Origin: Tetrahymena thermophila SB210
Taxonomy: Eukaryota > Ciliophora > Oligohymenophorea > Hymenostomatida > Tetrahymenidae
DNA: 64,000 nucleotides
Direction of reading: 5' to 3'
Assembly: GCF_000189635.1 (NCBI RefSeq)
Contig: NW_002476398.1
Span: 1 to 64,000 of the forward strand
Shown here: piece after piece, positions 25,580 to 50,300 of the stretch
Layout: the number at the start of each line of letters is the position of its first letter
Numbering within the stretch: position 1 is the stretch's first letter
Made by a program: the position numbers and the translations under genes
The notes under the pieces: generated by a model
What the model saw: the letters and a program-made list of their open reading frames with translations, nothing else
The model's database searches: none
Told to the model about the DNA's origin: nothing

Positions 25580-26963
25580 TCACTATTCATTATTTTTAAT
25601 ACTTGATTGTTTTTCTTTTAATTAAATACTTTTATTTTAATAATATCATCTCAATTGTATTTATGATAATTCTCTGTTAATTTCAAAAACTTATTTTTTA
25701 AGTTTGATTTTAAAAGCAGCGTTTCTTAATCTTTCCCAAAGATATTGAGTTTTCCATCTTCTTTAAGCGAACTTATCTAATTAAATAGCTTTATAATTTA
25801 TTCTAACTTATTTGACCTAGATATAAGATATTAAATTATTTCACCTAATATTTATTAAAAATTAAAATTTAATTTGAAGATTATTATTTAGAGGATTACT
25901 ATAACTATGCACATTAAATCAACAGAACGCATTATTTGAATTGTTTAATATTCCTGTTTGAATTGCGTGTTATTAATGCAAAAGCATATTGCTGTTAAGT
26001 ATTATATTCTAAAATCTGCTAAATTTAGCTTTTAGCTTTCAAATCTTCAAATTGTTAATCTATATTTATAAATTTATAAATAAATATTAAAAAGAATGTA
26101 TTCTACTTTTATATTAGACTAATTATATATATTTATATAGTACCCTAGGGTACTACTGCCTTTTTCAAAGCTACTTACATGAATAATAATAAGATAGTTT
26201 TCTATTTATCTACACAAAAACCATCAAACGTAATTTCCTTAATTGGTTATATTAATTTAAGATATAAATTTGTGATTAAAAATAATATTACGATGGCTTC
26301 TGATTAATTTAAACACCTATCTAATTAAATTGAAAAACAATACTCCTTTCTTAATTTAATAACCATAAATAAATAAATAAATAATTTCAAATTAAATTCA
26401 ATTTACTTTTAACCACATTTTTGCTTTATTTATTTATCACATAAATAATAAAAAGAAAATCTTTGTTCTACTAAACCTTTTTATATTAAGCCATTGTAAT
26501 CTTAAAAAAATTCTAACTTAATTATATTTTAGCACTATTAATACAAATATTTATTATTTACAAAGAGCTTATATGATAAATAATAAGATTTAAATGACTA
26601 TATTTTTGAAGAATTTTTACATGAAGGCTTATTTTAATTAAAGACAATCTAATTTAGTCTTACGCAGATGCTGTCCTCTTAGTTTATAGCAACTATGCTG
26701 TTATTAGACTCTACTTTAATACACATTTTTCTATCATAAGTTATGTAGACATTATTTGATTCACTTAGACAAAAATCGATTTCATCATATAAAACTGAGT
26801 CAATAACGCAAAATCCTCGCTTTTTCTCTCTTCCAATAAACTGTAAACCATCAATTTAAACACATATTTTTTGAATAGGGTTAAAGCATTCTAAACTTCC
26901 TTAACAAAAACAGCTGATTAGCTGAAAATATTAACACAAAATCAATACTATTTATATAAACAT
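25580..26963 (-). pseudogene. Internally deleted duplicate of giant gene 2
   Basis: The 5' part (26963 down to about 26206) is a close copy of 23717-22960, starting MFIQIVLILCQYFQLISCFC. The 3' part (about 26135 down to 25580) is a close copy of 8650-8107, the last exon. All the sequence between, some 14 kb in gene 2, is missing. The last-exon part keeps the LNLADFRIQYLTAICFCIN stretch but a one-base loss then shifts the frame (LLNLDKFA becomes LFNQISS). The second exon also loses a conserved Cys (GFCQD to EFFQD). The gene cannot make the multi-domain protein. Its flanks (27.0-27.3 kb) copy those of gene 2, so duplication preceded deletion. Confidence 0.85.
26138..26155. repeat. 18-bp perfect palindrome at the deletion joint
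   Basis: TAGTACCCTAGGGTACTA is a perfect palindrome, unusually GC-rich for this DNA. It sits in a roughly 65-base stretch (about 26138-26205) that matches neither the last-exon side nor the N-terminal side of giant gene 2. The position suggests filler DNA or a hairpin linked to the deletion event. Confidence 0.9.
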
Positions 26964-27011
26964 ATTCCTCTGTTTTACAAAATAATTTGTTTGATTTTTA
27001 ATTTAATATAA

Positions 27012-27098
27012 ATCTTTCAATTTTTTTAAGATCAATTTTATTAAATTATTATTTTTGAGTGGTTATTACTAATAAATTACATAAATCAATTGAAAGAT
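27012..27098. repeat. Conserved upstream inverted repeat (deleted copy)
   Basis: Same ATCTTTCAAT / ATTGAAAGAT arms as at 23761-23865, with a shorter interior. It was carried here by the duplication of the giant gene 2 promoter side. Confidence 0.5.
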
Positions 27099-29956: not shown

Positions 29957-32322
29957 ATGAGAAAAAAAAATATATTGCTATTGAATATAATTTGCATAGT
30001 GCTTGTTAGCCAAGCAATAGCTTAAAACTATGATTACAATACTGCAAATGTTTGCGATACTGGCTCATTTGGTAAATCTCAAGATTAAGTTGCTTATATG
30101 TGCACTCATTAAGCTCTTGGTTCTTGCTAGCTACAATAAGCTGTGTAAGCTGATGGCTATTCTAGCTTTGCAGAGTATGGATTCGGAGGTTATGGAAGCA
30201 ACCCTCCTTCAAATTATTGTTGTAGATGCTTTTAAATTCAAGTCTAAGATGGTGATGCTCCTGCAAAGGATATTATTGTTTAAGGTATTAACACAGGTGG
30301 TGATGTAAACAGTAATTAATTTGATTTATCTATGATTGCTGGTGGCTTTGGCGCTAACAACGGATGTGCTAACTAAGTTTTTGCATGGAATGGTGGTGCT
30401 TGGGATGGACGTGCTGGTGCTGCCTAATACTCTTAAAGTGCTGCTGGTGATTGGTGCAGTGATCCTACTTCAGATAATTCTAGATGTTAAAGTGCTTACT
30501 CTGGTGGTATCACTAAAAAAAGTGATTGTGCTAAGTTACCTAACAATAACTTAACCTAGCTATGTGAATACTCTTTTGATTCAAAATGGAGAACTAACAA
30601 CGGAAATAGGGACACTATTATGAAAGAAGTAAGATGTCCTGCTGGATTGATTAAATTATCAGGCTGTAACAGAGATGATTCATCTTTACCTTACCCTTCT
30701 GGAAAGCTCTCTGCTAGTGATCCTAGTCTTATGAGAGGAAAATTGACTCATATGTGGGATTGTAAATATTTTATTACTTTAATATTTTTATTATTATTGA
30801 TTTTTACTAAGTAATAAAATTCGATTTAAAAAATGACAATTAAATTATTCTATTTGAACATAATTTGGTTATCAAACATAAAAGAAATAATTAATAAATT
30901 ACTTAATTTGTTGAATCAAATATAATTTATAAATTAATTAACTCAATTATGATAGAACGAGTTCAGTCTTATTGATTTTACCACAAAAAAATTGAATTTT
31001 TTGTTAGTAAATTGTAAGTAGATTTCATAAACATAAAAATTAATATACCAGATTTTCATTAAATCTTTAATACTATCTATTTTCTTTTCATAAAAAACAC
31101 TACATTCTATATTTATTTAATTTAATTCTCTCAAATAAAACTCTCCACAACTAAATTATTAAAGTTATATTTTTTCTTTTAAATAGGTTGCAAACCATCT
31201 TGTTCATGGACTGCAAATGTATTAAAAGCTAATGGCACTGCTGTCATGTCTTGCGATGCATCAGGTACCAATATCCTTGGAACTAATACTTCGTTTTAAT
31301 GTACTAATTTTACTTGTGATCCTACATGCAAAACCTGCTCTGCATCAAATGATGCAAAAAAATGCACATCTTGCAATACTGGCCACTACTTAAGCTCAAA
31401 CCCTGGATAATGTACCGCTTGTACTCCTTCATTAAATTGCTAAGAATGCTCCAATAGCTCAACATGCACTACTTGTTAAACTGGATATACTTTATAGATT
31501 GATGGATCATGCAAGAAACCTTGCGATTAAAGTTGTAAAACTTGCAGCACTTCTTAAGATGCTACTTAATGTACTTCTTGCTATGATGGATACTATTTGA
31601 ATGGATCTTCCGTTGGTACTTGTTCTAAATGCCCATCAGGTTGTACTAGCTGCACTTCTAATAGTAACTGTTTAGCTTGTACTGATAATTATGTTTTAAT
31701 AAGTGGGAGTTGCGAACCTTGCGACTGTCCATGTTTATCTTGTAAAACAGACACTAGTACTTGTACAAGCTGTATTAAAGGTTACATTTTAAATGGAAAC
31801 ACATGCGAAGCTACTTGCGATTCTACTTGCAAAACTTGCAGTAAAAACTAAGATGCAACTTAATGCACTTCTTGCAATTCAGGATTCTATTTAGATGGAA
31901 CTACTGTGGGATCATGTGTTTAATGTTCTTAAAATTGCAGCAGTTGTACTTCCAAAAATAGCTGTTAAACTTGTACCAACAACACCATATTAGTGAGCGG
32001 TTAATGCCAATCTTGTAAAAGCCCATGCTAAACTTGCTAGACTTCAGTCACAAATTGTTTATCTTGTGTTTAAGGGTATACTTTGAATAGAAATACTTGT
32101 TCTCCAACTAAAGGAGAATGTCATCCCAGCTGCAAAACTTGCAGTGTTAACAATGACTAAAATGCTTGTACCTCCTGTTTTGATGGGTTTTTAATTTTGG
32201 GTAGTGGTAATTGTTAGCCTTGTCAGCCTCCTTGTTATAATTGCTCTGGAAATCCCAATAACTGTACTTAGTGTGCTAGCGGTTATGCTGTCTAAAATGG
32301 TACATGCTAAAAAATCAAGTGA
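29957..32322 (+). CDS. Circularly permuted GH45 endoglucanase with furin-like repeats, copy 1
   Basis: Two exons, 29957-30761 and 31187-32322 (425-nt intron), 646 residues in the ciliate code. Signal peptide 1-22 (ends VSQAIA). Residues 33-247 match the middle-to-end of GH45 cellulases: QVAYMC (44-49), NYCCRCF (86-92), NTGGDVNSNQFDLSM (112-126, D123 = catalytic acid), GCNRDDSSLPYP (236-247). A linker (248-265) leads to MWDCCKPSCSW (266-276), the segment that opens ordinary GH45 proteins and carries the base (D268). The order is thus a circular permutation. The rest is a run of CxxC / C..GY furin-like repeats. Relative to copy 2 a two-base difference after GTCQKI causes a TGA, so about 100 residues and the hydrophobic tail are lost. 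Predicted secreted beta-1,4-glucan hydrolase; activity is inferred. Confidence 0.93.
30762..31186 (+). other. Intron splitting the GH45 WDCC motif (copy 1)
   Basis: The donor GTAAAT follows GGATT and the acceptor AAATAG precedes GTTGCAAACC. The joined codons read W-D-C-C-K-P-S-C. The first 50 intron bases are nearly identical in all three copies, and read-through would add the hydrophobic stretch CKYFITLIFLLLLIFTK in frame. This intron is 425 nt, against 181 and 169 nt in copies 2 and 3. Confidence 0.93.
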
Positions 32323-32535
32323 TAATACATAATATTATTCAACCTGCTAAACTTGCACATAAGCTAATAATGCTAATAATGTATGTGCACTATGCCTGAG
32401 TGGATTTGTTCTTACCTCAGATAACTATTCCTAATTCTGCTAAAGTCTCTGTTAAACATGCAGTGATTCTCCAACTAGCTGTTTTATTTGTGTTGCTAAT
32501 TATACCTATAATTGCTATGTTTATCCTCTCAATTT
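32323..32535 (+). pseudogene. Decayed 3' coding remnant of GH45 copy 1
   Basis: Beyond the TGA the sequence still resembles copy 2's last repeats, in a shifted frame (for example TGTTAAACATGCAGTGATTC against TGTTAAACATGTAGTGGTTC). The part encoding the final residues is shortened, with about 50 bases missing before the GCTATGTTTATCC piece. It confirms that the shorter protein arose by loss. Confidence 0.8.
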
Positions 32536-35258
32536 GATTTACGAAATGAATTAATTAGATTACATTATACATATAAATTATTAAAAAATCTATCTATAAT
32601 AAATTTATATTAGTTTGATTGAATAATATTACATTAGATTTAAAATCAAATCAAAATTTCTAAAATTTTTTTTATCATTCCATTTTAACCAACAAATGAA
32701 CACAAAGAGAATATAAATTAAAATGAAAATGAATTATAAAATAATAAAATATATTAAGTGTAATTTATATTTGTTATTAGTAGGCCAGAATAGGCAATAA
32801 TTCAATTCAATAAAATGATTTCATATCATTCTCCTAATTTAATTGAAAATTTAAAGTGAACTTCCATGAAATAAAATTATGTCATTCAAATAAGCTGTAT
32901 AGCAGAATTAAAGTTTAATTTTAAATAAATATTTTAATTAAAATCTTTTATTTTTTTTAGAATAATTCAAAATTTTATTCAGTATTTATTAAGAAAAAAT
33001 TTATATTTTAGCTCTAAATTCCCAAGTTTTAATTAAATTTGTTGTATTTAAAAAAGGAATAAATTTTTAAAAACTAACTTTTCAATTAAAAATTAATTTC
33101 GTCAAAAACATTATTATTTATTTAGAATGTTTTGGAAAATGATAAATATAAATATAGATTTTAGAATCATAAAAAAAAATTTTAAATATTTTATAATCTG
33201 GATGCAGTATATACTTAAATATTATTTGAAATAAACATAATCAAACTTTTAATAAAGCAAACATTTTTAAAAATTTGTTTTAAGTCAATTGAAATTTAAC
33301 ATTTTTAAATGCCTGAGCAGCCAAATTTAAATTCCTAAAAATGTTGTAAATGATTATTTTCATAGCTGTTAAAAATGACATCATTACATCATTAAACATC
33401 AATAATTAGTAACTTAGATAAAAGAGGAAAACTCTTGGGTTTAGCTAAATTTCAAAATAGATATAATATTTCAAATTACTTGCAATGGTACTCACCATAC
33501 TTATCTAAACAAATCAGCTTAGAAATCATAATATTTTGTTATTGATTTCAAAGTAGAATTATATTTAAGGAATCCTTACAAAATATGAATAAAATTATAA
33601 AATAAGTAAACAAGTAAGTTGAATTTGTTAAATTTTGATAATTAGTTTACCTAATTAAATGAATCAATTTTAATAAAACTAACACCACAGAAAATTATAA
33701 TTTTACCAAAATATACATTTTTAATTAAAATTTCAGTGTAAACAAAATAGCTTTACTTCTCACTGAAATATTGTATATTCAAGCAATTCTCTCAAAGTAA
33801 AAGAGAGAGCGTAGGCAGAATTTCATTTTGCTCATTTTGCTTATTTTGCTCACATAATGAGAGAGAATAGAATCACTTTAGATAACATTTTCGATAATGC
33901 TTTTCTAAATTCCATTAATCTCATATGGAATTTTTTATTTTGAAAATAGGTCATTCAGCAATTATTTAGAGTAATAAAAAATGTGATCATCAAATTTGAA
34001 TTCCATTTTGCTTATAAAACCTTAGAAAAGAATAAGAGGATTATTTTTTTTAAAAATTTTAACTTCTTCCTGCTCTCTTAAAATTTAAGCTTCACTATGA
34101 GAAAATTGAATTTTTACACCATTTAAAATTTAGGAGTTAAACCCTATTTCAGAATTTGAGCTCATTTATTTATTCCTAAATAAATTGTTCGTTTATCATA
34201 TTTTTATATTCAAAATGCTTAAAGATACAGTTTTACACACCAAAAATATTAATGAATGAGTTAATAATACTTTAATAAAATCTTCTTATATGTTAGGAAT
34301 GTTCCTTCTATATTAACCATAGCTTAGGAACAATTATTTTCAATAAATTTTATACCTATATCATGATAAATTGTTTCACCTCCTGTTTTCCTCCTTAAAA
34401 AAAGGCACCTAATCTTCATACAAGCTGAATATGTAGTGCTCTTACAATTGCTTTTATTATTTTCCTAAAAATCATAATCTCCTCAAGTTAAAATTATGAA
34501 TTTGTAGTACCAATAATAACTAAATATTTATTTTTCCAAAGTATCAAATGAGGCGCTTTTATGTCTTACTCAAAGAGGAGCTGTTCTAGAGACATATTGT
34601 AATATATGTCATTTGAATCAGAAAAAAATACTTCGAAATATATTCTTATCAATCTAAATTGATGTATTGAATTAATATAGAATCTATCTTCTTAGAAGTT
34701 AGATATCTACTAAATTAACTCAAAAGACTATATTTTATTATCATTTTTATTTAAATTTTAATATTATATAAAAGCTGATATCCATTAAATTATTTTTAGT
34801 TGTAAAATATCTTTCTCGTTTGATGTAAGCAATAAAATTTTTAAATCATTGTTAACACACAATAATATTTTAAATTGATGTTCAAAATACTAAAAGCAAG
34901 TATTAAATAAATTATAATCAAGTTAACATAAATAAGGGTTATATAAAGTATATTCTAATTATTAAGTTCAGTTTATATTACATTATACTAATTGAAAACA
35001 AATCAATGCTAAATATAAAATTTTAAAATCTATATAATTTAACTTCTCACTTCCTATATTTCCTTTTATTATTTAATTTTTTTGTAAGACATTTTTATAT
35101 AAGATATTTTTTTTTATGGTTACCTTTTATTAATTTTTAATTTTTTATCAGTTGTGTATTATTTAATATTTATTAATGAAACTATATAATAATTTGTTTT
35201 ATTAAATAATATTTGGTTTTAAGGGACGCAAAAATAATAAATAGAGGGTGCGAAAAAA
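32536..35258. other. Downstream flank of GH45 copy 1 and spacer
   Basis: About 32.54-34.29 kb parallels the 3' flank of GH45 copy 2 (40.43-41.75 kb), sharing GAGCAGCCAAATTT and TTCAAAATGCTTAAAGATAC blocks; copy 1 has roughly 0.5 kb extra around 32.7-33.2 kb. From 34.3 to 35.25 kb the DNA is unique to this window. On the minus strand at about 34620-34280 it has protein-like readings (for example LILWKNKYLVIIGTTNS, then ETIYHDIGIKFIENNC in another frame), possibly a gene relic. No complete gene seen. Confidence 0.6.
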
Positions 35259-36392
35259 ATGAATGGATGTAGTGCACAAGAATAACGGTTTCTACTGTAT
35301 TAGGTATTCTAAGGTAACTATTTTATCAGGATTTAGAGGAGACTTTAAATGCTTTATAGAATGCGACCAAACTTATAAAAATAAAAATATAGAAATACAT
35401 ATATACATAGTTAAAATAATAATTGTAGACATTTTAATTGTAAATGCTATGGTCTTAAATATATTGAGTAAAAATAAAAAATGACAAAAAAGTAATTGAG
35501 ATAAGCTACTTTAAAAGAATTTAAAAAGTGTTTTCTAGAGTACTTTGATGATTTCTAAAGTGCTGCCTTTAATTTAGTCTGTGCATATAAGTCTATTCCT
35601 AAAAAAGTAGTGCATTATAACTATATTGTGATAGAAGTTGGGTATGGGCTCTTACTGTCAGTTGAGGATAATAAAAATAAGAACAACACTTTTAGATCTA
35701 ATTTGGATTATTTTGATAAAATAATGTTACTCTTCTAAAACTAGTTCCAGATATAGATAGCTCTTGATTTGGTAGATGAAGTTGCAGAAACATTTGATTA
35801 ATTCTCATAAAAGTTAACTAAAAAAATTTTTGTTTAGGAGTTTCAATTATACTATATTAAAAGCAGATCAAATATTTTATTAAATTACAAAAATGTCTAA
35901 AAAATGATAATTTAATACATATTAAAATTACTTATTTAGACATATTAAATTGGAATAAATAGTGAAAACGCATTAGTATGTTTATATAATATTTATAAAA
36001 ATTAATTATATGTTAAATATATTGGAGGTTATCAATATTCTTTATTGTAAAAGTTATTTTTTTTCATATTTTGTGCAAATTTTGGTAAATTAATTATCTT
36101 CAAATTTCATTTTATTGGATTTTATCAGAAAAAGATATACAATAAATATTTATTTTGTTATTCTGCTTTTAACTTAATCATTTCATATTTTTATTTAATT
36201 CTTTTATTAAATAAAAAGCATTTACTCTTCAGATAATAATATCTGATAAAAATTAAAGGGTTATTTATTTATTAACTTTACTGGAATTTTAGAAAGCATC
36301 AGATTAATTAATTATTGAGTGATAGATAGCATTGGTATAAAAAATTTACTCTTTTTACATCTAACTCCTATCGTTTAGCATAATTTTTTTGA
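35259..36392 (+). CDS. Unrecognised 377-residue ORF paired with GH45 copy 2
   Basis: A single open frame in the ciliate code from ATG 35259 to TGA 36390-36392, rich in TAA/TAG glutamines. An internal ATG at 35482 (MTKKQLRQATLKEF) is the better start, because similarity to the broken copy at 27480-28490 is protein-like from there. The best-looking part runs MTKKQ.. through SAAFNLVCAYKSIPKK, SVEDNKNKNNTFRSNLDYF and DLVDEVAETFDQFSQKLTKK. The last third has two hydrophobic stretches (around residues 262-285 and 298-319), but is AT-poor in complexity and could be untranslated. No signal peptide or known domain recognised. It may be a real lineage-specific gene or a frame that happens to be open; it lies in the same duplicated cassette as the GH45 genes. 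Confidence 0.45.
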
Positions 36393-36716
36393 TGTGTCAT
36401 TTTGGAATTATCTTTATATTATTGGTTTAATTAATAAAATGAAAATTAAAAAAATCTAAAGGTTATTCACTTTGTAAATAAAAATGTAACTAACTGCAAA
36501 TAAAAAAAATGGTTAAAAAATTTAACTTAAAATTTTAAATAGGGTAAAATAAAAATAAAGTTATGTCCAAAAGTATGTTTTATTAGCAAAGTGGATTGAA
36601 TTTTACTTAAGAAGAAATTAATAATTGGGTACTAATAAATGATAGAATTAAAACCTAAATTATAAATTAATAATTTACATTATCCTAACAATAAAGATTT
36701 GTATTTATTTTTTATT
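36393..36716. other. Short spacer with a possible gene fragment
   Basis: A frame opening at ATG 36563 reads MSKSMFYQQSGLNFTQEEIN and continues NWVLINDRIKTQIIN before running into the repeated GH45 flank at 36717. It looks like the first ~45 residues of a gene cut off by the arriving flank. The rest of the spacer shows nothing. Confidence 0.35.
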
Positions 36717-37799
36717 GTCAATTAATAGTCGAATAAATTCATTTGCTTGATCTTTAAAGAATCCAAAAATATATTTCAAATTAATTATTTAGAAATTTTA
36801 AAAACTATTTACAAAAGCAGTTTACTATATAAATTTATAAGTTTTAGGAAATTATATTCAAAATAATGCTTTATTCTATTTAAAATAATATTTTAATCTT
36901 ATAAAAATGAGGTTTAATATTTATTCAAAATTTAAAATAATTTAGATAAGTTTTGTAAAAACCTGTATATAATTAGTAAATTCTTAGATTAAGTAAGCTA
37001 TTTTACAATTTACGGATATGAATTAATTTAATTCAACTGTATTAAATATTTAAAATAATCTAGATAAGATATGAAAAAGAAATCTATATATCTTATTTTT
37101 ATTTTATTAAACAATTAATCACACAAATTTTTAAAATAGAATAATTTAAGATAATTTGTATTTTCTAATTTATGGCAACAAAGTAATTTAAATCTATTTA
37201 ATTCTAACACAGCAATATTTGTTGTTTTAATTCATTTAGAAAAGATATCATAAAAAATCTTAATATCCTATTTTTATTTTAATTAACAATCATACATATC
37301 CATACAAATTCTTATATAAAATAAATTAAGATAATTTGTATTTTTGTTTTTATGACTGTAAATTAATTTTAATTTATTTATTGCAATCATTTGAAGTAAA
37401 TAATTATATTTTTTAACTTATTTTTATCATTAGAAATTCAAAAAATTTTATAATTTTCAAATAAAATATGAAATCTACATGAATATTCAGCAAAAAAATT
37501 TTTTTGATTTGCCTATTCTTTAAAAAGTAATAAAAATATATGCTAGAATGAAACTTGACTCTCCTAATTCAATATAGATTATTTTTAATTTAGTTTACAC
37601 TCCAAGCGAAAAATTTAATCTGGGGTTGCTCTATCAATTTATTAAATCAGTAATAATAATTATTTATTTTGCTTAACATCAAAAGTTTACATTAGAGATC
37701 TTCAAGCAAGAAATTTTAATAGATATAAATTAAAAACGAAAAAAGCTAAGAGAAACAAATATAATAAATAAATAAATAAAATAATAATAAGTAAATAAA
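36717..37799 (+). repeat. Repeated 5' flank of GH45 copy 2
   Basis: Counterpart of 28868-29956 and 41906-42809. It begins at GTCAATTAATAGTCGAATAA and ends at the start codon. Compared with the copy 1 flank it has only small insertions and deletions. Confidence 0.85.
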
Positions 37800-40431
37800 A
37801 TGAGAAAAAAAAATATATTGCTATTGAATATAATTTGCCTGGTGCTTATTAGTTAAGCAATAGCTTAAAACTATGATTACAATACTGCAAATGTTTGCGA
37901 TACTGGCTCATTTGGTAAATCTCAAGATTAAGTTGCTTATATGTGCACTCATTAAGCTCTTGGTTCTTGCTAGCTACAATAAGCTGTGTAAGCTGATGGC
38001 TACTCTAGCTTTGCAGAGTACGGATTCGGTGGTTATGGAAGCAATCCTCCTTCAAATTATTGTTGTAGATGCTTTTAAATTCAAGTCTAAGATGGTGATG
38101 CTCCTGCAAAGGATATTATTGTTTAAGGTATTAACACTGGTGGTGATGTAAACAGTAACTAATTTGATTTATCTATGATTGCTGGTGGCTTTGGCGCTAA
38201 CAACGGATGTGCTAACAAAGTTTTTGCATGGAATGGTGGTGCTTGGGATGGACGTGCTGGTGCTGCCTAATACTCTTAAAGTGCTGCTGGTAATTGGTGC
38301 AGTGATCCTACTTCAGATAATTCTAGATGTTAAAATGCTTACTCTGGTGGCATCACTAAAAAAAGTGATTGTGCTAAGTTACCTAACAATAACTTAACCT
38401 AACTATGTGAATACTCTTTTGATTCAAAATGGAGAACCAGCAACGGAAATAGAGACACTATTATGAAAGAAGTAAGATGTCCTGCTGGATTGATTAAATT
38501 ATCAGGCTGTAACAGAGATGATTCATCTTTACCTTACCCTTCTGGAAAACTCTCAGCTAGTGATCCTAGTGTTATGAGAGGAAAATTGACTCATATGTGG
38601 GATTGTAAATATTTTATTACCTTAATATTTTTATTATTATTGATTTTTACTAAGTTTAAATACATAAATAAAATTCTAAAATACACGATCTATATTCATT
38701 TCAGATAAAATATTGCTTTCTTTATTCTTAAATAAAACTCTCCACAACTAAAATATATTAAAGTTATATTTTTTCTATTAAATAGGTTGCAAACCATCTT
38801 GTTCATGGACTGCAAATGTATTAAAAGCTAATGGCACGGCTGTCATGTCTTGCGATGCATCAGGTACCAATATCCTTGGTACTAATACTTCGTTTTAATG
38901 TACTAATTTTACTTGTGATCCTACATGCAAAACTTGCTCTGCCTCCAATGACGCAAACAAATGCACATCTTGCAATACTGGCCACTACTTAAGCTCAAAC
39001 CCTGGATAATGTACTGCTTGTACTCCTTCATTAAATTGCAAAGAATGTTCCGATAGCTCAACATGCAAAACTTGTTAAACTGGATATACTTTATAGATTG
39101 ATGGATCTTGCAAGTAACCTTGCGATTAAAGCTGTAAAACTTGCAGCACTCCTTAAGATGCTACTTAATGTACTTCTTGCAATGACGGATACTATTTGAG
39201 TGGATCTTCTGTTGGTACTTGTTCTAAATGCCCATCAGGTTGTACTAGCTGCACTTCTAATAGTAACTGTTTAGCTTGTTCTGATAATTATGTTTTAATA
39301 AGTGGAAGTTGTTAAGCTTGCAATAGTCCATGCTTATCATGTAAAACTGACACTAATACTTGTACAAGTTGTGTTAAAGGTTATGTTTTAAATGGAAACA
39401 TATGCGAAGCTACTTGCGATTCTACTTGCAAAACTTGCAGTAAAAACTAAGATGCAACTTAATGCACTTCTTGCAATTCAGGATTCTATTTAGATGGAAC
39501 TACTGTGGGATCATGTGTTTAATGTTCTTAAAATTGCAGCAGTTGTACTTCCAAAAATAGCTGTTAAACTTGTATCAACAACACCATATTAGTGAGCGGT
39601 TAATGCTTATCTTGTACAAGCCCATGCTAAACTTGCTAGACTTCTGTCACAAATTGCTTATCTTGTGTTTAAGGGTATACTTTGAATGGAAATACTTGTA
39701 CTCCTATAAACACAGGAGATTGCCATCCTAGTTGCTAAACATGCAGCAGACCAAATGATTAAAATTCTTGTACTTCATGCCCTACAGGATATCTTGTTCT
39801 TGGAGGTAACTGTTAGCCTTGTTAAAGTCCATGCTAGAATTGCAGCGGAAATCCTAATAGTTGCACTTCATGTATTGCAAATTATTCATTAAGTGGAAAC
39901 ACATGTGTTGGTAGTAATTAAGATTAAACACAATGTCACCCCAGCTGCAAAACTTGCAGTGTTTAATATGACTAAAATGCTTGTACCTCCTGCTTTGATG
40001 GGTTTTTAATTTTGGGTAATGGTAATTGTTAGCCTTGCCAACCTCCTTGTTAAAATTGCTCTGGTAATCCCAACAATTGTACTTAATGTGCTAGTGGTTA
40101 TGCTGTCTAAAAAGGTACATGCTTAAAAATATTAAATGATAATACATAATGTGATTCAACCTGTTAAACTTGCACATTAGCTAATAACGCAAATGCATGT
40201 GCATCATGCGTGAGTGGGTTTGTTCTTGCCTCAGATAACAGTTGCTAAGCATGCTAAAGTCCCTGTTAAACATGTAGTGGTTCTACAACTAGCTGTCTTA
40301 CTTGTATTGCTAGTTATAACTTACAAGGCAATTAATGTGTTCCCTAATTATTGGCAACAGTAAGCATGAATTCAAGCATTTTGAAATTGAGTTTGATGGG
40401 TTTAATAGCTATATTTATCCTTTTAATTTGA
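37800..40431 (+). CDS. Circularly permuted GH45 endoglucanase, copy 2 (full length, anchored)
   Basis: Exons 37800-38604 and 38786-40431 (181-nt intron), 816 residues. Exon 1 is nearly identical to copy 1: signal peptide, GH45 middle and end, then linker and WD; exon 2 opens with CCKPSCSW. Catalytic Asp positions D123 and D268 are kept, as are the paired Cys of the CCRC and CCKPSC motifs. The Cys-rich stalk is the longest of the three, with repeats of the type C.SC..GY.L....C..C. Only this copy ends in a hydrophobic tail (NSSILKLSLMGLIAIFILLI then TGA), as expected for a GPI-attachment signal or C-terminal membrane anchor. It is probably a surface-bound enzyme; beta-glucan as substrate is inferred from the family. 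Copies 1 and 3 appear to be shortened derivatives of this form. Confidence 0.95.
38605..38785 (+). other. Intron splitting the GH45 WDCC motif (copy 2)
   Basis: Same donor context (GGATT then GTAAATATTT) and acceptor context (TTAAATAG then GTTGC) as copy 1. Splicing gives a total coding length divisible by three. Confidence 0.93.
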
Positions 40432-41905
40432 TTTATGAAATGAATTAGATTATATTATATACATATATATTATTAAAAAAATCTATAAAAATTTATATTA
40501 GTACAAGATTGAATAATTTTACATTAGATTTAAATTCAAATCTAAATTTCTAAATTTATTTCATGTAATTCCTCTCTTCCTTAGTCTTATGCAGAGGACT
40601 AAAAATTTAGCTGAGGTCTTCATTTAGAGGTACAAAATAAACTTTTTAAATATTTAATAATTGATGAATCTGGCAGCTGGCCGCAGTATATACAAAATTC
40701 TTATAAATTTTGATGTAAATATATTTAACTTTTATTAAAGCAAGAATGTTTGAAAATTGGTTTTAAATCAATTGAAATTTAGCAATTTTTAAATGTTTGA
40801 GCAGCCAAATTTTATTCATAGAAATGTTGTAAATGATTATTTTCATATCTGCTTAATGTAATATCGTTACATCACTACACCTCAATAATTAGTAACTTAG
40901 ATAAAAGAGGAAATACCTTGGGTTTAGCTAACATTTTAAAAAAAATAGAATATTTCAAATAATTTACAATGTTACTCCTCACACTTGTTTAATCAAATTG
41001 GCTGAGGAATCTTAATTTATTTTTATTGATTACAAAGTAGAATTATATTTAACAAGTGCTTACAAAATATGAATAAAATTATAAATAAGTAAGTTGAATT
41101 TGTTAAATTTTGATAATTAGTTTACCTAATTAAATGAATCAATTTTAATAAAATTAACACCACAAAAAAATTATAATTTTACTAAAATATATATTTTTAA
41201 TTAAAATTTCAGTGTAAACAAAATAGCTTTAACTTTCACTGAAAATTTGTAATTCAAGCAATTCTCTCAAAATAAATGAGAGTGTAAGGCAAAATTTAAT
41301 TTTTGATCGTTTCGCTCTCATAATGAAAGATAACAGAATCATTTTAAATAATATTTTTAGAAACTTCATTAATTCTATATGGAATTTTTAATATTAAAAT
41401 TAGATTGTTCAACATTATTCAGAGTAAAAAAATTAGATCATCAAAAATGAATTTCTTACTTATAAAACCATAGAAAAGAATTAGATAGTTATTTTTAAAA
41501 AAATATTACCTTCCTCATGTTCTATTAATATTTGAACTTCACCATGAGATGATGGAATTATTATATCCTTTTAAAGTTTAGGAGTTTTGCCATATTCCAT
41601 GATTTGAACTCATTTATTTATTCCTTAATAAACTGTTCATTTATCATATTTTTATATTCAAAATGCTTAAAGATACAGTTTTACATACCAAAAAAAAATT
41701 AATGAAAGAATCAACAATACCTTAATAAATTATATCTTCTAATATATTTAGATAAATATCTTTAATATTACAAACTTAATATACAACACTTTCTTGTTTT
41801 TTACCAACAAATTAATTAAAAAAATGCTAATTAATGTTATTTTGTAAACATAGAATTTAATTTCTTTGAAAACAAACTTTTAAATATATAACAATTTTTC
41901 CATCT
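40432..41905. other. Downstream flank of GH45 copy 2
   Basis: Non-coding and homologous to the flank of copy 1 up to about 41.75 kb. From about 41.79 kb it resembles the sequence at 28.75-28.87 kb, the outer part of the GH45 5' flank. The array units therefore meet near 41.76-41.79 kb. No gene seen. Confidence 0.7.
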
Positions 41906-42809
41906 GTCAATTAATAGTCGAATAAATATATTTGCTTGATCCATAAAGAATCCAAAATCAAATTGCAAATTAATGATTTCAAAATTTTTATAACTATTTA
42001 CAAAAGCAGTTTACTCTAAAAATTTATATATTTTATTAAATTACAATTCAAAATAATTCTTAATCCTATTTAAAATAATATTTTAATCGTAAAAAAAAGA
42101 GGTTTCTTAAAATTTATTCAAAATTTAAAATAATTTATAAAATAGAATAATTTAAGATAATTTGCATTTTCAAATTTATGCAACACAGTAATCTAAATCT
42201 ATTTAATTCTAACACAGCAATATTTGATGTTTAAAATCATTTAGAAAAAATATAATAAAAAATCTAAATATCTTATTTTATTATAATTAACTATCATATA
42301 AATTCATACAAATCCTTTTTTAAAGTAAATTAAGATAATTTGTATTTTTGTTTTTATGAATGTAAATTCATTTTAATAGATTTATTACAATAATTAGAAG
42401 TAAATAATTATCTTTTTTCACATACTTTTAACATTAAAAATTAAAAAACTATTATAATTTTTCAAATAAAATATGAAATCTACACAAATATTTAGCAAAA
42501 AATTTTTTGATTTTCCTATTATTCAAATAGTCATAAAAATATATTGCTAGAATGAAACTTGGTCTCCTAATTCAATATAGATTATTTTTAATTTAGTTAC
42601 ATTCAAAGCGAAATAGCTTTAATTTAATTTGTGGTTGCTCTATCAATTTATTAAATCAGTAATCATAATTATTTATTTTGCTTAACATTACAAATTTATA
42701 TTAGAGATCTTCAAGCAAGAAATTTTATGGATATAAATTAGAAACGAAAAAAGCTAAGAGAAACAAATATAATTAAATAAAAAAAATTAAATAATAATAA
42801 GTTAATTAA
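41906..42809 (+). repeat. Repeated 5' flank of GH45 copy 3
   Basis: Third copy of the flank at 28868 and 36717. It is shorter because about 160 bases around 42.14 kb are missing compared with the others. Confidence 0.85.
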
Positions 42810-44625
42810 ATGAGAAAAAAAAATATTATGCTATTGAATATAATTTGCATAGTGCTTGTTAGTCAAGCAATAGCTTAAAACTATGATTACAATACTGCAA
42901 ATGTTTGTGATACTGGCTCATTCGGTAAATCTCAAGATTAAGTTGCTTATATGTGTACTCATTAAGCTCTTGGTTCTTGCTAACTACAAAAAGCTGTATA
43001 AGCTGATGGCTACTCTAGCTTTGCAGAGTACGGATTTGGAGGTTATGGAAGTAACCCTCCTTCAAATTATTGTTGTAGATGCTTTTAAATCTAAGTCTAA
43101 GATGGTGATGCTCCTGCAAAGGATATTATCGTTTAAGGCATTAACACAGGTGGTGATGTAAACAGTAATTAATTTGATTTATCTATGATTGCTGGTGGCT
43201 TTGGCGCTAACAACGGATGTGCTAACTAAGTTTTTGCATGGAATGGTGGTGCTTGGGATGGACGTGCTGGTGCTGCCTAATACTCTTAAAGTGCTGCTGG
43301 TAATTGGTGCAGTGATCCTACTTCAGATAATTCTAGATGTTAAAATGCTTACTCTGGTGGCATCACTAAAAAAAGCGATTGTGCTAAGTTACCTAACAGT
43401 AACTTAACCTAACTATGTGAATACTCTTTTGATTCAAAATGGAGAACTAACAACGGAAATAGAGACACTATTATGAAAGAAGTAAGATGTCCTGCTGGAT
43501 TGATTAAATTATCAGGCTGTAACAGAGATGATCCATCTTTACCTTACCCTTCTGGAAAGCTCTCTGCTAGTGATCCTAGTGTTATGAGAGGAAAATTGAC
43601 TCATATGTGGGATTGTAAATATTTTATTACTTTAATATTTTTATAATTATTGATTTTTACTAAGTAATAAAATTCAATTAAAACAATGACAATTAAATTC
43701 TTCTATTTGAACATATTTGGATTTTCAAACATAAATTAAAAAATAAATAAGTAAATTACTAAATTTTTTTTTCTTTTATTTAGGTTGCAAGCCATCTTGT
43801 TCATGGACTGCAAATGTATCCAAAGCTAATGGTACTGCTGTCATGTCTTGTGATGCATCTGGTACCAATATCCTTGGTACTAATACTTCGTTTTAATGTA
43901 CTAATTTTACTTGTGATCCTACATGCAAAACCTGCTCTGCATCCAACGATGCAAACAAATGCACATCTTGCAATACTGGCCACTACTTAAGCTCAAACCC
44001 TGGATAATGTACTGCTTGTACTCCTTCATTAAATTGCTAAGAATGCTACAATAGCTCAACATGCACAAGTTGTGTTAAGGGTTATGTTTTAATTGGAAAT
44101 ACATGTCAAGCCACTTGTGATTCTACTTGTAAAACTTGCAGCAAAAACTAAGATGCAACTTAATGCACTTCTTGCAATTCAGGATTCTATTTAGATGGAA
44201 CTACTGTAGGATCATGTGTTTAATGTTCTTAAAATTGCATCAGTTGTACTTCCAAAAATAACTGCCTAAATTGCAGTAATAACACCATATTAGTGAGCGG
44301 TTAATGCTAATCTTGTACAAGCCCATGCTAAACTTGCTAGACTTCAGTCACAAATTGCTTATCTTGTGTTTAAGGGTATACTTTGAAGGGAAATATTTGT
44401 ACTCCAACAGACACAAAAGATTGCCATCCTAGTTGCTAAACATGCAGCAGACCAAATGATTAAAATGCTTGCACTTCATGCCATACAGGATATCTTGTTC
44501 TTGGAGGTAACTGCTAGCCTTGTTAAGTTCCATGCTAGAATTGTAGAGGAAATCCTAATAGTTGCACTTCATGTATTGCAAATTATTCATTAAGTGGAGA
44601 CAAATGTGTTCATATTAATAAATGA
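42810..44625 (+). CDS. Circularly permuted GH45 endoglucanase, copy 3 (short stalk)
   Basis: Exons 42810-43614 and 43784-44625 (169-nt intron), 548 residues. The N-terminal 268 residues match copies 1 and 2, with the same signal peptide, QFDLSM acid site and MWD base site; exon 2 opens with CCKPSCSW. The stalk is shorter: a block of repeats is missing after CQECYNSSTCTSC, most simply by recombination between repeats. The ORF ends HINK then TGA. Just beyond, in another frame, lies a remnant of copy 2's tail (MSLAVLIAMFILSI), so the anchor was lost by a frame change. A secreted form is predicted. Confidence 0.93.
43615..43783 (+). other. Intron splitting the GH45 WDCC motif (copy 3)
   Basis: GTAAATATTT donor and TTTAG acceptor, shortest of the three at 169 nt. 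Splicing restores W-D-C-C-K-P-S-C and a length divisible by three. Confidence 0.93.
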
Positions 44626-45799
44626 GTTTGGCAGTTTTAATTGCTATGTTTATCCTTTCAATTAATTTGATTTATGAAATGAATTAGATTACATTATCTA
44701 CATATATATATCTATAAAAATTTATATTAGTACAAAATACTAAAAATAAATTTATAAAAAAATAAAAAATAATTTTTGTGTTTTAAAATAATATATTAAC
44801 TAACAAATCTATCTATCCAGCCTTGACATAGTTTCATGGTGTGATATGAAATTAAAGAAAGGTATTTGTGAAAGGCTTTTAATTCTTCAAAAAACATAAA
44901 AATCATGACCAACAATTATTAATTAAGTAAAATAAAAATAAATAAACTAAATTTGGAGTTGTTGAAACTTTTAATTATGCAAGAGTTTATTTTCAAGGTT
45001 TATCCTGACTTAAAATAAATGAATAAATAATTCTTACAAAAATTAAAACAATTTTGAGATTATTATTTATTATTTCAAATGTTTTTCAGTATTTAATAAA
45101 AATATTAATTTTTAAAGAGATATTCATAAAAATAAAATAAATTTTACAAAAAAATTTAATTATTTGTTTTTAAATTATGAGATTTGCTTGCTTGTTTTAA
45201 TGAGGTAAAATGTTATTTTTATTAATTTAAATGTAAATTTGATTTCTTTAAGAATTATAAGATGAAACATTCTTTATTTCCTAGAAATATTATTAAAAAA
45301 TTAGACCACAACTTTGAAAATCATAATTTATAGTTAAAAAAAATAAACTAAATTACCAAATCTGTTATTAGTCATTTTAATATTTCAAATAAAACACATT
45401 ATGTTATTCATCTAAAATCTATTATAAAATTTAATAAATTTAATTAATTTGTAAAAATACCTTTTATTAGAAAGTATTAGTGCTATCCAAGCTATAAAAT
45501 TTAGATAGGCTTTTGTTTATAATTAAATAATTTTATTTTTTTAATGTCTGTAAATTTTTTTATTTATTAATAAAATTATAATAGCAATTGAAAAATGAAT
45601 TTATTAAAAAAAGATAAAAAATAAATTATTTTTAATTCAAATAAAATAATTTCACAGTAGATGTATGCTTTTGTTATTAAAACTATAAAATATAAATATT
45701 TATATATTTAGTTTTTGAGTTTTTAAGTAATAAATTAAAATGTTTTTCATCAGTAAAACACTCAATTATTATTTTAAACAAACAAAAATATTATATCAT
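44626..45799. other. Convergent spacer between GH45 copy 3 and giant gene 3
   Basis: It starts with the decayed anchor remnant and the GH45 3' flank (to about 44.76 kb), then plain AT-rich DNA. The 3' ends of both neighbouring genes point into it. No gene, repeat or terminator motif recognised. Confidence 0.65.
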
Positions 45800-47330
45800 T
45801 CATTGAGTATTTATAATTTATGATATTGTTTTCATCGATTTATTTTAAATTTAAATCTTATTATTTGAATATAATTAATTTAATATATCAATTTAGCCAC
45901 ACTATGAAATATTTGTTTTTAGGTAAATCAATTATTTTAGCTTAGGAAAAATTTGTCTTATTTTTTACCACGTCATTTGAACCCTTAAATATCTTTAAAC
46001 ATGCTAATCTAAACCTAATTTTTATATTATTTACTCACATTTAGGTGATTTTGATTAGAAAAATTTAATAATTTTAATATATTTAGGCATTTAATAGTGA
46101 TTAAGTTAAAAGAGTATTAAATGTAAGATAAGAGCTACTATACATAGTAAACCAATTGTGCATAAAAGCTCTAATTATTGTTAGTTTATTCTCTATTACA
46201 TAGTATTGATTGAAAAACAAATTGCTGTTAAATATTAAATTTTAAAATCTATCTAATTTAATTTCTCGCTTTCATATGGCTTATCTTTTTATATTTTTAT
46301 AATTACAATTAAAAATTAATTAAAAGCAAAAAAATATTACATCTAAATACTAAAAGACTGTAAGATAAGGAAATTATGATAGATATTACTATCTATAATT
46401 AGCTAATTAAATAAGAGTAGTAGAAGATCAAGAAAAGTATTAATTTGTAACCAATTTTCACAAAATCCCATAAATAAAATTATTACTTATAATCTAATGT
46501 AAAAAAACCATAAAGATATTCGTATTTATACATTTTTAAGAAATATCTAGCTCTGTAAAGTCTAAATATAATCAAAGCAAAAGGAGATAATAAAGCTACA
46601 ATTACCAAGATTAAGGCTGACAAATCATAATAAGTCTAAAATACTAAGCTGCAATTTAAAGATAAATATTCCATTACAAATTCTACATCACCAAATTTCT
46701 AGCAATAAACCTTTTTTAATTGAAGAAAAGTTTATGATGATTCCATTTAAAAATATTAAAAATAATTATTTAAATAAATAAATTTTTACTGATCTAAAAA
46801 TCTTTGACAATATGGCAATCAGTGAAAAGTAAAGAAAGATACTTATGGAGATAACCATTTCTTTAATGGTACCTTTGTATTTGAATTTTGTTTTTATAAA
46901 GGTGTTATGTATGGCCAAGTAAATTATTACAAAAAAACATATCCCTAAAAATAGGTAAATACTATTATTAATTATCCTAGATTCTTAAAAAATTTATTGT
47001 AAGAAGCATTCTGTTACCCTTAATTAAGTAGGAAACAGATTACCAATATCAACAAATAAACGTATTAGCATATTAGGTATATTACTATCATAACTAAACA
47101 TTATTCCTATAATTGATAACTAAAAAACAAAGAATTTTATAATTCTAATATCATTAGAGTAGTGATTTCCATAAAACTTTTTAAAAAGCACATAAATTGT
47201 TTTAGCCATTAACTTAATTTTTAAATAATTATGCATTCTATTAGCTGTAAATAGAGGTATTACTATTATGGATATTAATATAATCAATGGATAGATGATT
47301 TCTGTAAAAGTGATATCGCTACATCTGTTA
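45800..47330 (-). other. Multi-pass C-terminal region of giant protein 3
   Basis: Hydrophobic segments parallel those of giant protein 2, including ALILVIVALLSPFALIIF, LILFLIFYYSYLI, IVISIIISLSYSLLVF, YLTAICFSIN and LLCTIGLLCIVALILHLILF. The last intron (donor after LVFR, acceptor at about 46276) removes 54 nt and gives the FRYKPYES join conserved with copy 2. Confidence 0.75.
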
Positions 47331-50300
47331 AATATTTTTAATAATGTAAATAAATAGATAAATGAAAAAAATTTTTTACTTTTTGCATTTTTAATCTAAA
47401 TTCATGTAATATTAATCTCCCCAGCTTTAGCCACTTCTATCACAATCTTCACAAAGAGCACCAACATAGCCTAAATAAAAAAATGTTTTAAATGTGTAAT
47501 TTAATGTAAGTTTACCTTGCTTGCAGTAATAATTTAAATCTGTACGTTTAACGTTGAATAAATTTCGATGTTTTAAACCTTTACTTAATTTGATATCTCC
47601 AACACAATTTTTACATGGATACAAAACAGCCGATGTTTAACTGACTCTCCATAAATTTGCAGGTAAAAGAATTTTATTCTTATAACACTTAGCTTCTGAA
47701 CTAGGACATTTTTAGCAAGTATTTGAAATTACAAAACTATATTAGGTATCTTTACAGTCTTAACAAGAATCAAATTAATTTTTATAAGCTTTTGGTATTT
47801 AGCCTACCTGGCATTATTAAATAGTTTGCACATTAAGTATAATTGATTTGTTAATATAATTTATTACATAACCGCTTTAACTAAGTTATGGTATTTAAAT
47901 TAAATCACTTGTTATTTATAAAGAAAGCTATTTACCAAAGTTTCCATATACTTAGATTTATTATGTTAAGTTGAATATTCCATTTTAGTGAGTTATTTTA
48001 TTTTAATTAAGAAATCCATTATCACCTAATAATGTTATTAAAAGAAAGCTATCTAATGGAATATTTAGAATATTTTCATTTTATTCATTTGATAATCTAA
48101 TTAAAATCTTATCCTAATAATATAAAGAAAAATTAATAAGAATTTTCTGTAAAAATAATTTAAAAATTAATAAAAAATTAATAATTTATTTATAAATATG
48201 TTAATTAAGCTAAAAAATTAGATATGAATATTACTTAAAAGGACCCTCCTTGATGATTGTAGATAATTATATTTTAACTTGAAACATATTCATTATTTAT
48301 TGATACATTAAATTAAGTTGGGGCTGTTTAAATATTTTATCCATGATATGTAGCTTAGTTATTTTTATATACACAAGATGAGTATTTATTAACTCTTTAA
48401 CCTGTTGTTGATCCTAAAGCTCCTCCAAAACTTGCTTAATTATTTGAAAATGTACTGTTTGCAAGGTTAATTAAAAATTTTAAAATGTTCTGCATGTTAT
48501 TTTCTAAATATATTGCTCCACCATATTAACTAGCATAATTTTTTTCAAAAATGGATTTATTTATAATAACAGAAGACTCTTTTATGTATAAAGCTCCTCC
48601 ACTTATAATAGCTTTATTGTTTGTAAATTTAGAATTACTTATAATTAATTAATTTTTAAAATTGTCTTGAAGATCTTCAGGGCTATTAATTGGTTATTTA
48701 GTTTACTCTATAAATAAACTTGATCCGTATTATGCAATGTTATTTATAAAAACGGAATCTTGAACTAATAAGCTTGAAGTAAATATTTATAAAATACCAA
48801 AGTTGCACTAATAGCAAACATTATTTGTGACAGTCAAATTTGAAATTAAGCAAGTCTGGCTACTTAAAAAAGCGATGTTTTATATATTCTATCCTTATTT
48901 CTAAAAAGATTTATTGATATTATAATTATTTGATATCTAAGTATCATACATGTAAATATTTTAAGTATTTTTTACCATGATTAAATTTTCAAAGAACACA
49001 CTCTTTTCATAAATATTGTTTAGATCAAAATAATTTTGAGCATCATTTATTATTAAAAGCTTTTAATATAGAAGCTCTTTGAATTAAGATTGTTAATCGT
49101 TAATGTTTTAGCTTGGAACTATTTAAAATCTTGAGAATAAAATTTATATATTGCTGGCCTATCCAATATAAACTTATGAAGGTTCAGAGGATTAAATTAT
49201 TTAAGTTTTGTATTAATTGAGAACATTACTAAGTTATTCTAGTAAATTAGAAGTATTTTAAATCTAATTGTTAATTTTAACAGATGAAAGAACAATTTTT
49301 GCTTATGAATCAAAATAATTTTAAATATTGATACTACTGCCTTAACTAGAAAAATTATCTAAGAAAAAACTCTTCTAAATTATTACAGCACCTTTTTAGC
49401 ATAATGACTTAATATTTAGTGCTCCACCAGTATTAAATGCAAAATTATTAGAAAACTCTGATCTGATTACGAAGATATCAAATGTTCTTGAATAAGTTGC
49501 ATCAATGTAAATTGCTCCTCCTTGTGTTTCTAAATCATCTTAGCTGAAAGCAATATTGTTTTAAAAGGTACTTTTAAATATATCTAGCTTTCCATAATTT
49601 TGTATAGTTAAATGAATAGCACCGCCCATTAAAGCTTGGCCAAAAATAAATTATGAATATTTTATGTCTAGCTATTCTGTGCTAATTGTGAAAAATCCAC
49701 CATTTCTAACAGAAGTTGTATTAAAGTAATTATTTATGTTGCTAAAGTTACAAGATATTAAACTTATTTGCTTAACTAAACCTTATATCCAATTAAAAGG
49801 CTATCTCAAATCTAAATTGGTAAAAGCAGAATTCAAAATGTTGACTTTAGTTGTTGCAGATTAAAAATAAAATCCAAATGATATCTTAGATATTATAGGC
49901 TATTGATAATAATTAAAATAAATTATTTAAAATAAAAGTAAAAAATTTATTGAGTTTTATATTTATTAAAATAAATATCTTAAATTAGTCAAGAGAGTTT
50001 TTAAATTTTTAAGTAAAAATTGATACTTTTTATGACAATGAAAATTGAGATTTAATGTAATACATTTACAAATAAATTATACTTAAATTAATAATTTACC
50101 TTATTAACTAATGAATATGCTGAAAATGATGCGAGAGTGACATTTTATACTGTAAAGTTAGTATTAAACTTTGAATTGATAGAAATTAATGAAATGTCTT
50201 GAGTGCTATCTAAAATAACTACTTTAGTTTAGTTACTTAAAATATTCTTAACATTAATTTAAAGAGTGTTTTATTATTGAGTATTAAAGTTATTTTCAAT

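Follow-up and report, generated by a model that had tools for sequence, protein, structure and literature searches.

A candidate circularly permuted GH45 cellulase domain in three tandem genes of Tetrahymena thermophila

The 64,000-nucleotide stretch of Tetrahymena thermophila SB210 DNA examined here (the window; contig NW_002476398.1, positions 1 to 64,000; 22.65% GC) holds three genes in a row, each of which carries a glycoside hydrolase family 45 (GH45) domain with its motifs in rotated order. All three lie on the + strand and start at 29957, 37800 and 42810; values below follow this order of first, second and third gene. Under the ciliate code (table 6, TAA/TAG read as Gln), the Gln codons in exon 1 are mostly TAA or TAG (15 of 19, 15 of 18 and 15 of 18), and exon 1 holds no TGA in any of the three. 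The spliced models run from 29957-30761 + 31187-32322 (646 amino acids), 37800-38604 + 38786-40431 (816 amino acids) and 42810-43614 + 43784-44625 (548 amino acids). In each, exon 1 (29957..30761, 37800..38604 and 42810..43614) encodes a hydrophobic leader, the GH45 domain from its second part to its end (in the first gene about residues 40-213 of the Humicola insolens enzyme HiCel45A), a linker, strand beta1 and the WD of WDCC. The leader, with the consensus MRKKNI.LLNIIC.VL.SQAIAQ, opens all three proteins and, judged by eye from its hydropathy plot, resembles a signal peptide.

The domain is completed only across an intron. The three introns (30762..31186, 425 nt, 16.0% GC, GTAAAT..AATAG; 38605..38785, 181 nt, 15.5% GC; 43615..43783, 169 nt, 12.4% GC) all begin with GTAAAT, end with AG, are in phase 1 and fall between WDC and CKPSC; their GC content of 12-16% compares with 36.5-36.8% in exon 1. 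Exon 2 opens with the remainder of the Cys codon, followed by CKPSCSW, so that the predicted splicing rebuilds the WDCCKPSC motif in all three copies (spliced reading HMWDCCKPSCSW). An earlier note on this DNA had given MWDCCKPSCSW as a single motif; this is correct for the spliced protein of all three copies, but not for the DNA, where the introns, which the note did not mention, divide it. After C-CKPSC..SFQC (HiCel45A about 11-47), exon 2 of the first gene (31187..32322) continues into CxxC-rich repeats without a hydrophobic C-terminal tail, that of the second (38786..40431) into CxxC-rich repeats of the Pfam VSP type with such a tail, and that of the third (43784..44625) into a shorter repeat region, again without the tail.

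The GH45 hallmarks occur once per copy and on the + strand: QVAYMC (30086, 37929 and 42939), CCRCF (30218, 38061 and 43071), TGGDVNSNQFD (starting at 30293, 38136 and 43146), RCPAGLI (30632, 38475 and 43485), MWDC (with its W at 30755, 38598 and 43608) and CKPSC (31189, 38788 and 43786). Read along the protein, every copy thus has the order leader, QVAYMC, CCRCF, TGGDVNSNQFD, RCPAGLIKLSGCNRDD, linker, HMWD and, beyond the intron, CKPSCSW, the rotated arrangement that the earlier note had described. WDCC precedes the acid motif in none of the three, and we therefore class the domain as a permuted variant rather than as an ordinary GH45 member. Against the Pfam GH45 profile (PF02015, curated cut-off 27 bits), the whole second protein in its natural order scores 51 bits, above the cut-off. 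Scored separately, the exon-1 part reaches 66.7 bits and the 57-residue second part 25.5 bits (E 1.4e-5), slightly under the cut-off, while the rotated sequence reaches 84.3 bits; each half, searched apart as had been suggested, relates to GH45, and the two score best when rotated together. A search of NCBIfam with the rotated sequence gave no match.

Alignment to GH45 enzymes of solved structure points the same way. A sequence search of the PDB returned 11 matches at E up to 10, ten of them GH45 chains aligned in three stretches each and the eleventh a chance match (E 1.8). In the alignments to 5gly, 5glx and 3eng, the C-terminal part of the ciliate protein lines up with chain residues of about 5-44, and its N-terminal part with those of about 70-140 and 146-209. 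With a rotated query, nine of the ten GH45 chains aligned in two stretches where the natural order had given three; the first of the two spanned chain residues of about 8-143. Our own hidden Markov model (HMM), built from 86 bacterial GH45 domains and HiCel45A, likewise placed residues 4-215 of the tested domain on model positions 21-224 and residues 241-287 on positions 3-47. In a rotation scan, in which the cut point was moved in steps of four residues, the optimum lay before residue 263 (LTHMWDCC), with 66.3 bits compared to 49.6 in natural order, and all six bacterial GH45 domains used as controls peaked at their natural start. Cuts before residues 231 (64.5 bits) and 267 (63.8 bits) scored so closely that the scan locates the old junction only to a stretch from the linker region to the first residues of WDCC.

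The residues on which GH45 catalysis depends are largely in place. In the first gene, the catalytic acid is the Asp of QFD (30317..30325, + strand), Asp123 of the protein and equivalent to HiCel45A Asp121, and the catalytic base is the Asp of MWD (30755..30761, + strand, comprising WD and the first base of the Cys codon), Asp268 and equivalent to HiCel45A Asp10. The base sits at the end of the domain opposite to its usual GH45 position. Asp116, the equivalent of HiCel45A Asp114, is also kept, and each of the 14 HiCel45A cysteines aligns to a Cys, in agreement with the earlier statement that both Asp and the Cys are retained; four further cysteines (57, 167, 191 and 307) are extra to HiCel45A. 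At the level of sequence, these data support the view that the GH45 domain of all three genes is a circular permutant in which both catalytic Asp and the cysteine framework have been kept.

For structure prediction, AlphaFold2 was given the exon-1 product, whose 246 residues end with WDC and include both catalytic Asp, with alignments of 41 rows (run 1) and 91 rows (run 2). Blocks 201-240, which run from the last part of the core through the linker into the tail strand and include most of it, have a mean predicted local distance difference test score (pLDDT) of 79-87 in run 1 and 85-92 in run 2. Just ahead of WDC, DSSP assigns a strand in both models, at 236-241 in run 1 (block 231-240, pLDDT 85) and at 236-243 in run 2 (block pLDDT 92). 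Four of the 38 relatives in the run 1 alignment have at least one stray letter within 236-243, with no relative spanning half of that segment or extending as far as WDC; in run 2, 18 of the 91 rows are short N-terminal pieces aligned beneath the tail, which makes this run less independent. Foldseek at E <= 0.001 gave ten matches per run, all of them GH45 (10 of 41 and 10 of 55 matches at E <= 10). Strand beta1 of GtCel45A is described, in a passage of PMC10909974, as lying immediately ahead of both the position of the base and the conserved Tyr, and because the predicted tail strand also stands just before the Tyr/base position, we place it as the counterpart of this beta1. In the models, then, the old N-terminal strand is predicted to dock on the core and to help close the double-psi barrel as in a normal GH45. 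The circular permutation proposed in the earlier note is supported by the part-wise profile scores, the alignments to solved GH45 chains, the rotation scan with its six bacterial controls, the retained residues and this predicted strand.

All three copies appear to have been maintained. Across exon 1 (805 nt), the ratio of nonsynonymous to synonymous substitution rates (dN/dS) is 0.135, 0.094 and 0.100 in the three pairwise comparisons, with dS of 0.089-0.136; in the exon-2 part of the domain, the first and second genes have no amino-acid difference and the third differs at one residue. The domain is under purifying selection in all three copies, and from the low dN/dS and the near-identical exon-2 part it follows that it has been kept in each. 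The earlier reading of three tandem copies stands for the GH45 domain and fails behind it, where the hydrophobic tail is limited to the second gene. There, the region after the domain is 509 residues long, contains 36 CxxC motifs and closes with MNSSILKLSLMGLIAIFILLI, the hydrophobic tail; the first gene has 339 residues with 26 CxxC motifs and the third 241 residues with 18, both with an earlier stop. The whole second protein matches PF03302 (Pfam VSP) with 93 bits, and its tail is a possible glycosylphosphatidylinositol (GPI) or membrane anchor. In the first gene, around 32100-32560, a 2-nt gap relative to the second gene precedes the stop and is followed by further repeat-like codons in another frame; in the third, the second gene's type of hydrophobic tail is missing at 44450-44760. 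Read through in frame under table 6 (30762-30830, 38605-38670 and 43615-43680), the introns would add a hydrophobic stretch, KYFITLIFLLLLIFTK, after WDC in the first and second genes and a nearly identical one in the third. This is probably just AT-rich intron, and an anchored form that retains it is conceivable.

Taken as a whole, the best explanation of these findings is a secreted, circularly permuted GH45 domain of subfamily-A type in each gene, to which we assign a probability of about 0.8. In this arrangement, the ancestral first unit (beta1, the WDCCKPSC loop with the base and the stretch past Cys31; HiCel45A about 3-47) would have moved behind the old C-terminus, joined to it through some 20 linker residues, with the new termini at the loop around HiCel45A 40-47. 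Asp268 and Asp123 would face each other and could cleave beta-1,4-glucan by inversion. The CxxC-rich repeats may keep the domain at a distance from the cell, the product of the second gene being anchored and those of the first and third released. As to origin, two GH45 copies may have been tandemly duplicated or fused and their outer parts then lost. The C-terminal segment aligns to HiCel45A 3-47 with a score of 88, placing Cys307 at position 47, and the N-terminus aligns weakly to HiCel45A 40-59 with a score of 33, placing Cys33 at the same position, so that the 40-47 stretch with its Cys at 47 is present at both new ends. Such overlapping ends are as expected from a duplicated intermediate trimmed on both sides. 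They lend modest support to the tandem-duplication origin put forward earlier.

Several observations weigh against a functional permuted GH45 or limit what the predictions can say of it. Total phmmer scores are nearly unchanged by rotation (85.7 to 86.0 for 5gly), being insensitive to it because separate stretches are summed in both orders. The folded construct ends before exon 2, so that 38 domain residues are missing, and its mean pLDDT is low in both runs (62.0 with a predicted template modelling score of 0.67 in run 1; 66.8 with 0.71 in run 2), with residues below 50 at 104-144 and 161-174 in run 1 and at 113-124 and 126-160 in run 2. WDC itself has low confidence, residues 243-246 being under 50 in run 1 and the last block at 46 and 59 in runs 1 and 2. 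The template modelling (TM) scores given by Foldseek for the exon-1 product alone are 0.38-0.48 in run 1 and 0.39-0.59 in run 2; these follow sequence order and therefore do not probe the rotated part. Within the active site, Met266, two residues ahead of the base, replaces HiCel45A Tyr8, and Gly replaces Ala74; activity may therefore differ or be lost. A passage of PMC10909974 describes Tyr8 as conserved in GH45 and expansins. Tyr8, Ala74 and Gly148 do not vary among the 87 bacterial domains, in the case of Tyr8 partly by construction, because the pattern used to fetch these domains permitted only Tyr or Met at position 8. At Gly148 the ciliate protein has Asp, and at Tyr147 Trp, both within a poorly aligned loop. 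Ciliates as such also seem poor in enzymes for breaking down plant carbohydrates, according to a passage of PMC1413528 that cites Tetrahymena.

Some simpler accounts were tried and rejected. A chance WDCC motif does not explain the C-terminal segment, whose 49 residues score 37.0 bits against the family HMM, with at most 9.0 bits for shuffled versions (495 shuffles reported of 500 made). A GH45 in normal order further upstream was likewise discarded: tblastn of the window finds the three GH45 copies, one weak 22.7-bit stretch elsewhere (E 0.68) and no WDCC copy ahead of the QVAYMC half. The domain is also not that of a pseudogene, given dN/dS of about 0.1 and exon 1 free of TGA in all three copies. 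The reading that most deserves to be kept in mind, possible though we do not favour it, is that the permuted domain folds but no longer hydrolyses cellulose and serves as a glycan-binding or expansin-like surface protein. The Met at Tyr8 and the Gly at Ala74 speak for it, as does the fusion to long CxxC-rich repeats resembling surface proteins of the Pfam VSP type, and it keeps its weight because Tyr8 is lost. On the other hand, the two catalytic Asp and the counterpart of Asp114 have been retained, and the base, which a passage of PMC10909974 gives as absent in subfamily C as well as in three non-hydrolytic groups (expansins, loosenins and swollenins), is present here; the dN/dS near 0.1 fits a hydrolytic and a non-hydrolytic role alike.

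Other rivals concern how the rotated order is built or came about. Two unrelated acquisitions, in which a GH45 core without its start was joined by a WDCC piece from another gene with no permutation by duplication, appear unlikely: a contribution from exon joining is conceivable, given that the intron coincides exactly with the WDC|CKPSC boundary, but this boundary is inside the moved unit and not at its edge, with the beta1 stretch and WD on exon 1, and the 40-47 stretch with its Cys occurs at both ends as a duplicated intermediate predicts. Even so, the outcome would still be a permuted domain. We consider it more doubtful still that the WDCC segment completes a neighbouring molecule, the linker serving as the hinge of a swapped dimer or polymer. 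The linker of about 20 residues would allow such a swap and WDC is of low confidence in the AlphaFold2 models; against this, the single-chain blocks with the linker and the strand before WDC are among the most confident of each model, and DSSP sees a strand there. Least probable is an artefact, whether from a misassembly, an incorrect splice model or germline DNA in scrambled order. Gene scrambling in the germline does occur in some ciliates, the splice model was read from genomic DNA alone, and under table 6 the exon-1 frame remains open into the intron. Nevertheless, a hydrophobic leader stands directly ahead of the QVAYMC half, three diverged copies share the identical order and the same GC-poor GTAAAT..AG intron, splicing restores a family motif, and dN/dS is about 0.1 in all three pairs.

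For the permuted GH45 enzyme itself, the best reading of its function from sequence is a secreted beta-1,4-glucanase that would aid digestion of cellulose-containing food, the product of the second gene probably being anchored at the surface. We lean slightly towards the fuller view of a disulfide-rich cellulase with a double-psi barrel that has been circularly permuted in nature, is maintained by selection in a ciliate and is active at the surface of the cell. If so, the cleft would be displayed on a CxxC stalk by way of the new exit point, and the termini created by the break might be stapled by two of the additional cysteines, Cys57 and Cys307, which lie close to them. The break places the catalytic base at the other chain end of a small disulfide-rich barrel, which suggests that the first strand of a GH45 barrel can be supplied last during assembly. 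The domain may also provide an example in which permutation by duplication, with ends that overlap, can be put to the test, and a template for designing permuted cellulases that carry new attachment points. In practical terms, a linear domain search underrates such a gene, here with 51 bits as found compared to 84.3 rotated.

The surroundings of the array are themselves repetitive. Intergenic DNA upstream, and in part downstream, of the genes also belongs to the duplicated unit. Six open reading frames (ORFs) on the - strand to the left of the array (9570-18028) match five on the - strand to its right (47154-54749), in the same order and with 41-63% identity, as would be seen if an older segmental duplication or gene family flanked the array with one copy on each side. 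Two of the nine long ORFs scanned, both on the - strand (10412-12451 and 48085-49992), contain Chlam_PMP-type repeats (PF02415; 36.3 and 32.5 bits). The long + strand frames at 22924-23625 and 25816-26871 are 65% alike over 225 residues, and the strand opposite the latter also carries a long ORF (25683-27089), leaving the coding strand ambiguous. A transfer RNA scan of the window with the bacterial code gave none, and no telomere-type GGGGTTGGGGTT occurs within it.

It is uncommon for an enzyme to be circularly permuted in nature. Among known systems, the ciliate domain is closest to HiCel45A (EGV; 3eng) and Thielavia terrestris GH45 (5gly/5glx), its best sequence and fold matches, with which it has in common the two catalytic Asp, TGGD, CCxC, WDCCKPSC and all 14 cysteines; once rotated, it is 36% identical to HiCel45A. 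It departs from these subfamily A enzymes in its order, in the Met at Tyr8, in its four extra Cys, two of which (167 and 191) lie in an insertion, and in the CxxC-rich repeats fused behind it. Bacterial GH45 domains (the best 80 of 121 relatives, mainly from Fibrobacter and Myxococcales) likewise have WDCCK and the acid Asp. In bacterial ORFs with both motifs, however, WDCC comes first in 81 of 81 and the acid in none; since the search patterns included [MY]WDCCKP, permuted forms with that motif, and only those, could have been caught. At the positions of HiCel45A Cys87 and Cys199, 0 of 87 bacterial domains have Cys, whereas the ciliate protein has both, like HiCel45A, and a pair lost or gained may separate the bacterial GH45 from these two. 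The repeat region of the second gene resembles Giardia-type VSP and furin-like CxxC repeats but, unlike Giardia-type VSP, it sits behind an enzyme domain and in a ciliate. Relatives sought elsewhere gave no match by tblastn in plasmids and phages and, by pattern search in viral contigs, 3 and 19 matching stretches of which none was confirmed. In line with the earlier note, co-mention searches confined to open-access papers, together with the titles and abstract openings listed by broader ones, yielded no earlier description of a permuted GH45: the one paper that pairs circular permutation with GH45 does so in a reference on binding modules, the passage of PMC3997829 that mentions a protist GH45 clade is without the term 'permut', in the relevant passage of PMC6165527 'permuted' belongs to a GH3 reference, and GH45 is mentioned neither in PMC12452270 nor in the pertinent sections of PMC1413528. 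Permutation as such has precedents among glycoside hydrolases of other folds and families, namely GH70, which has a rotated catalytic domain beside GH13, and TOS1, known from a reference title in PMC4176579. The permuted GH45 of Tetrahymena would thus add a new variant to a phenomenon already known in glycoside hydrolases.

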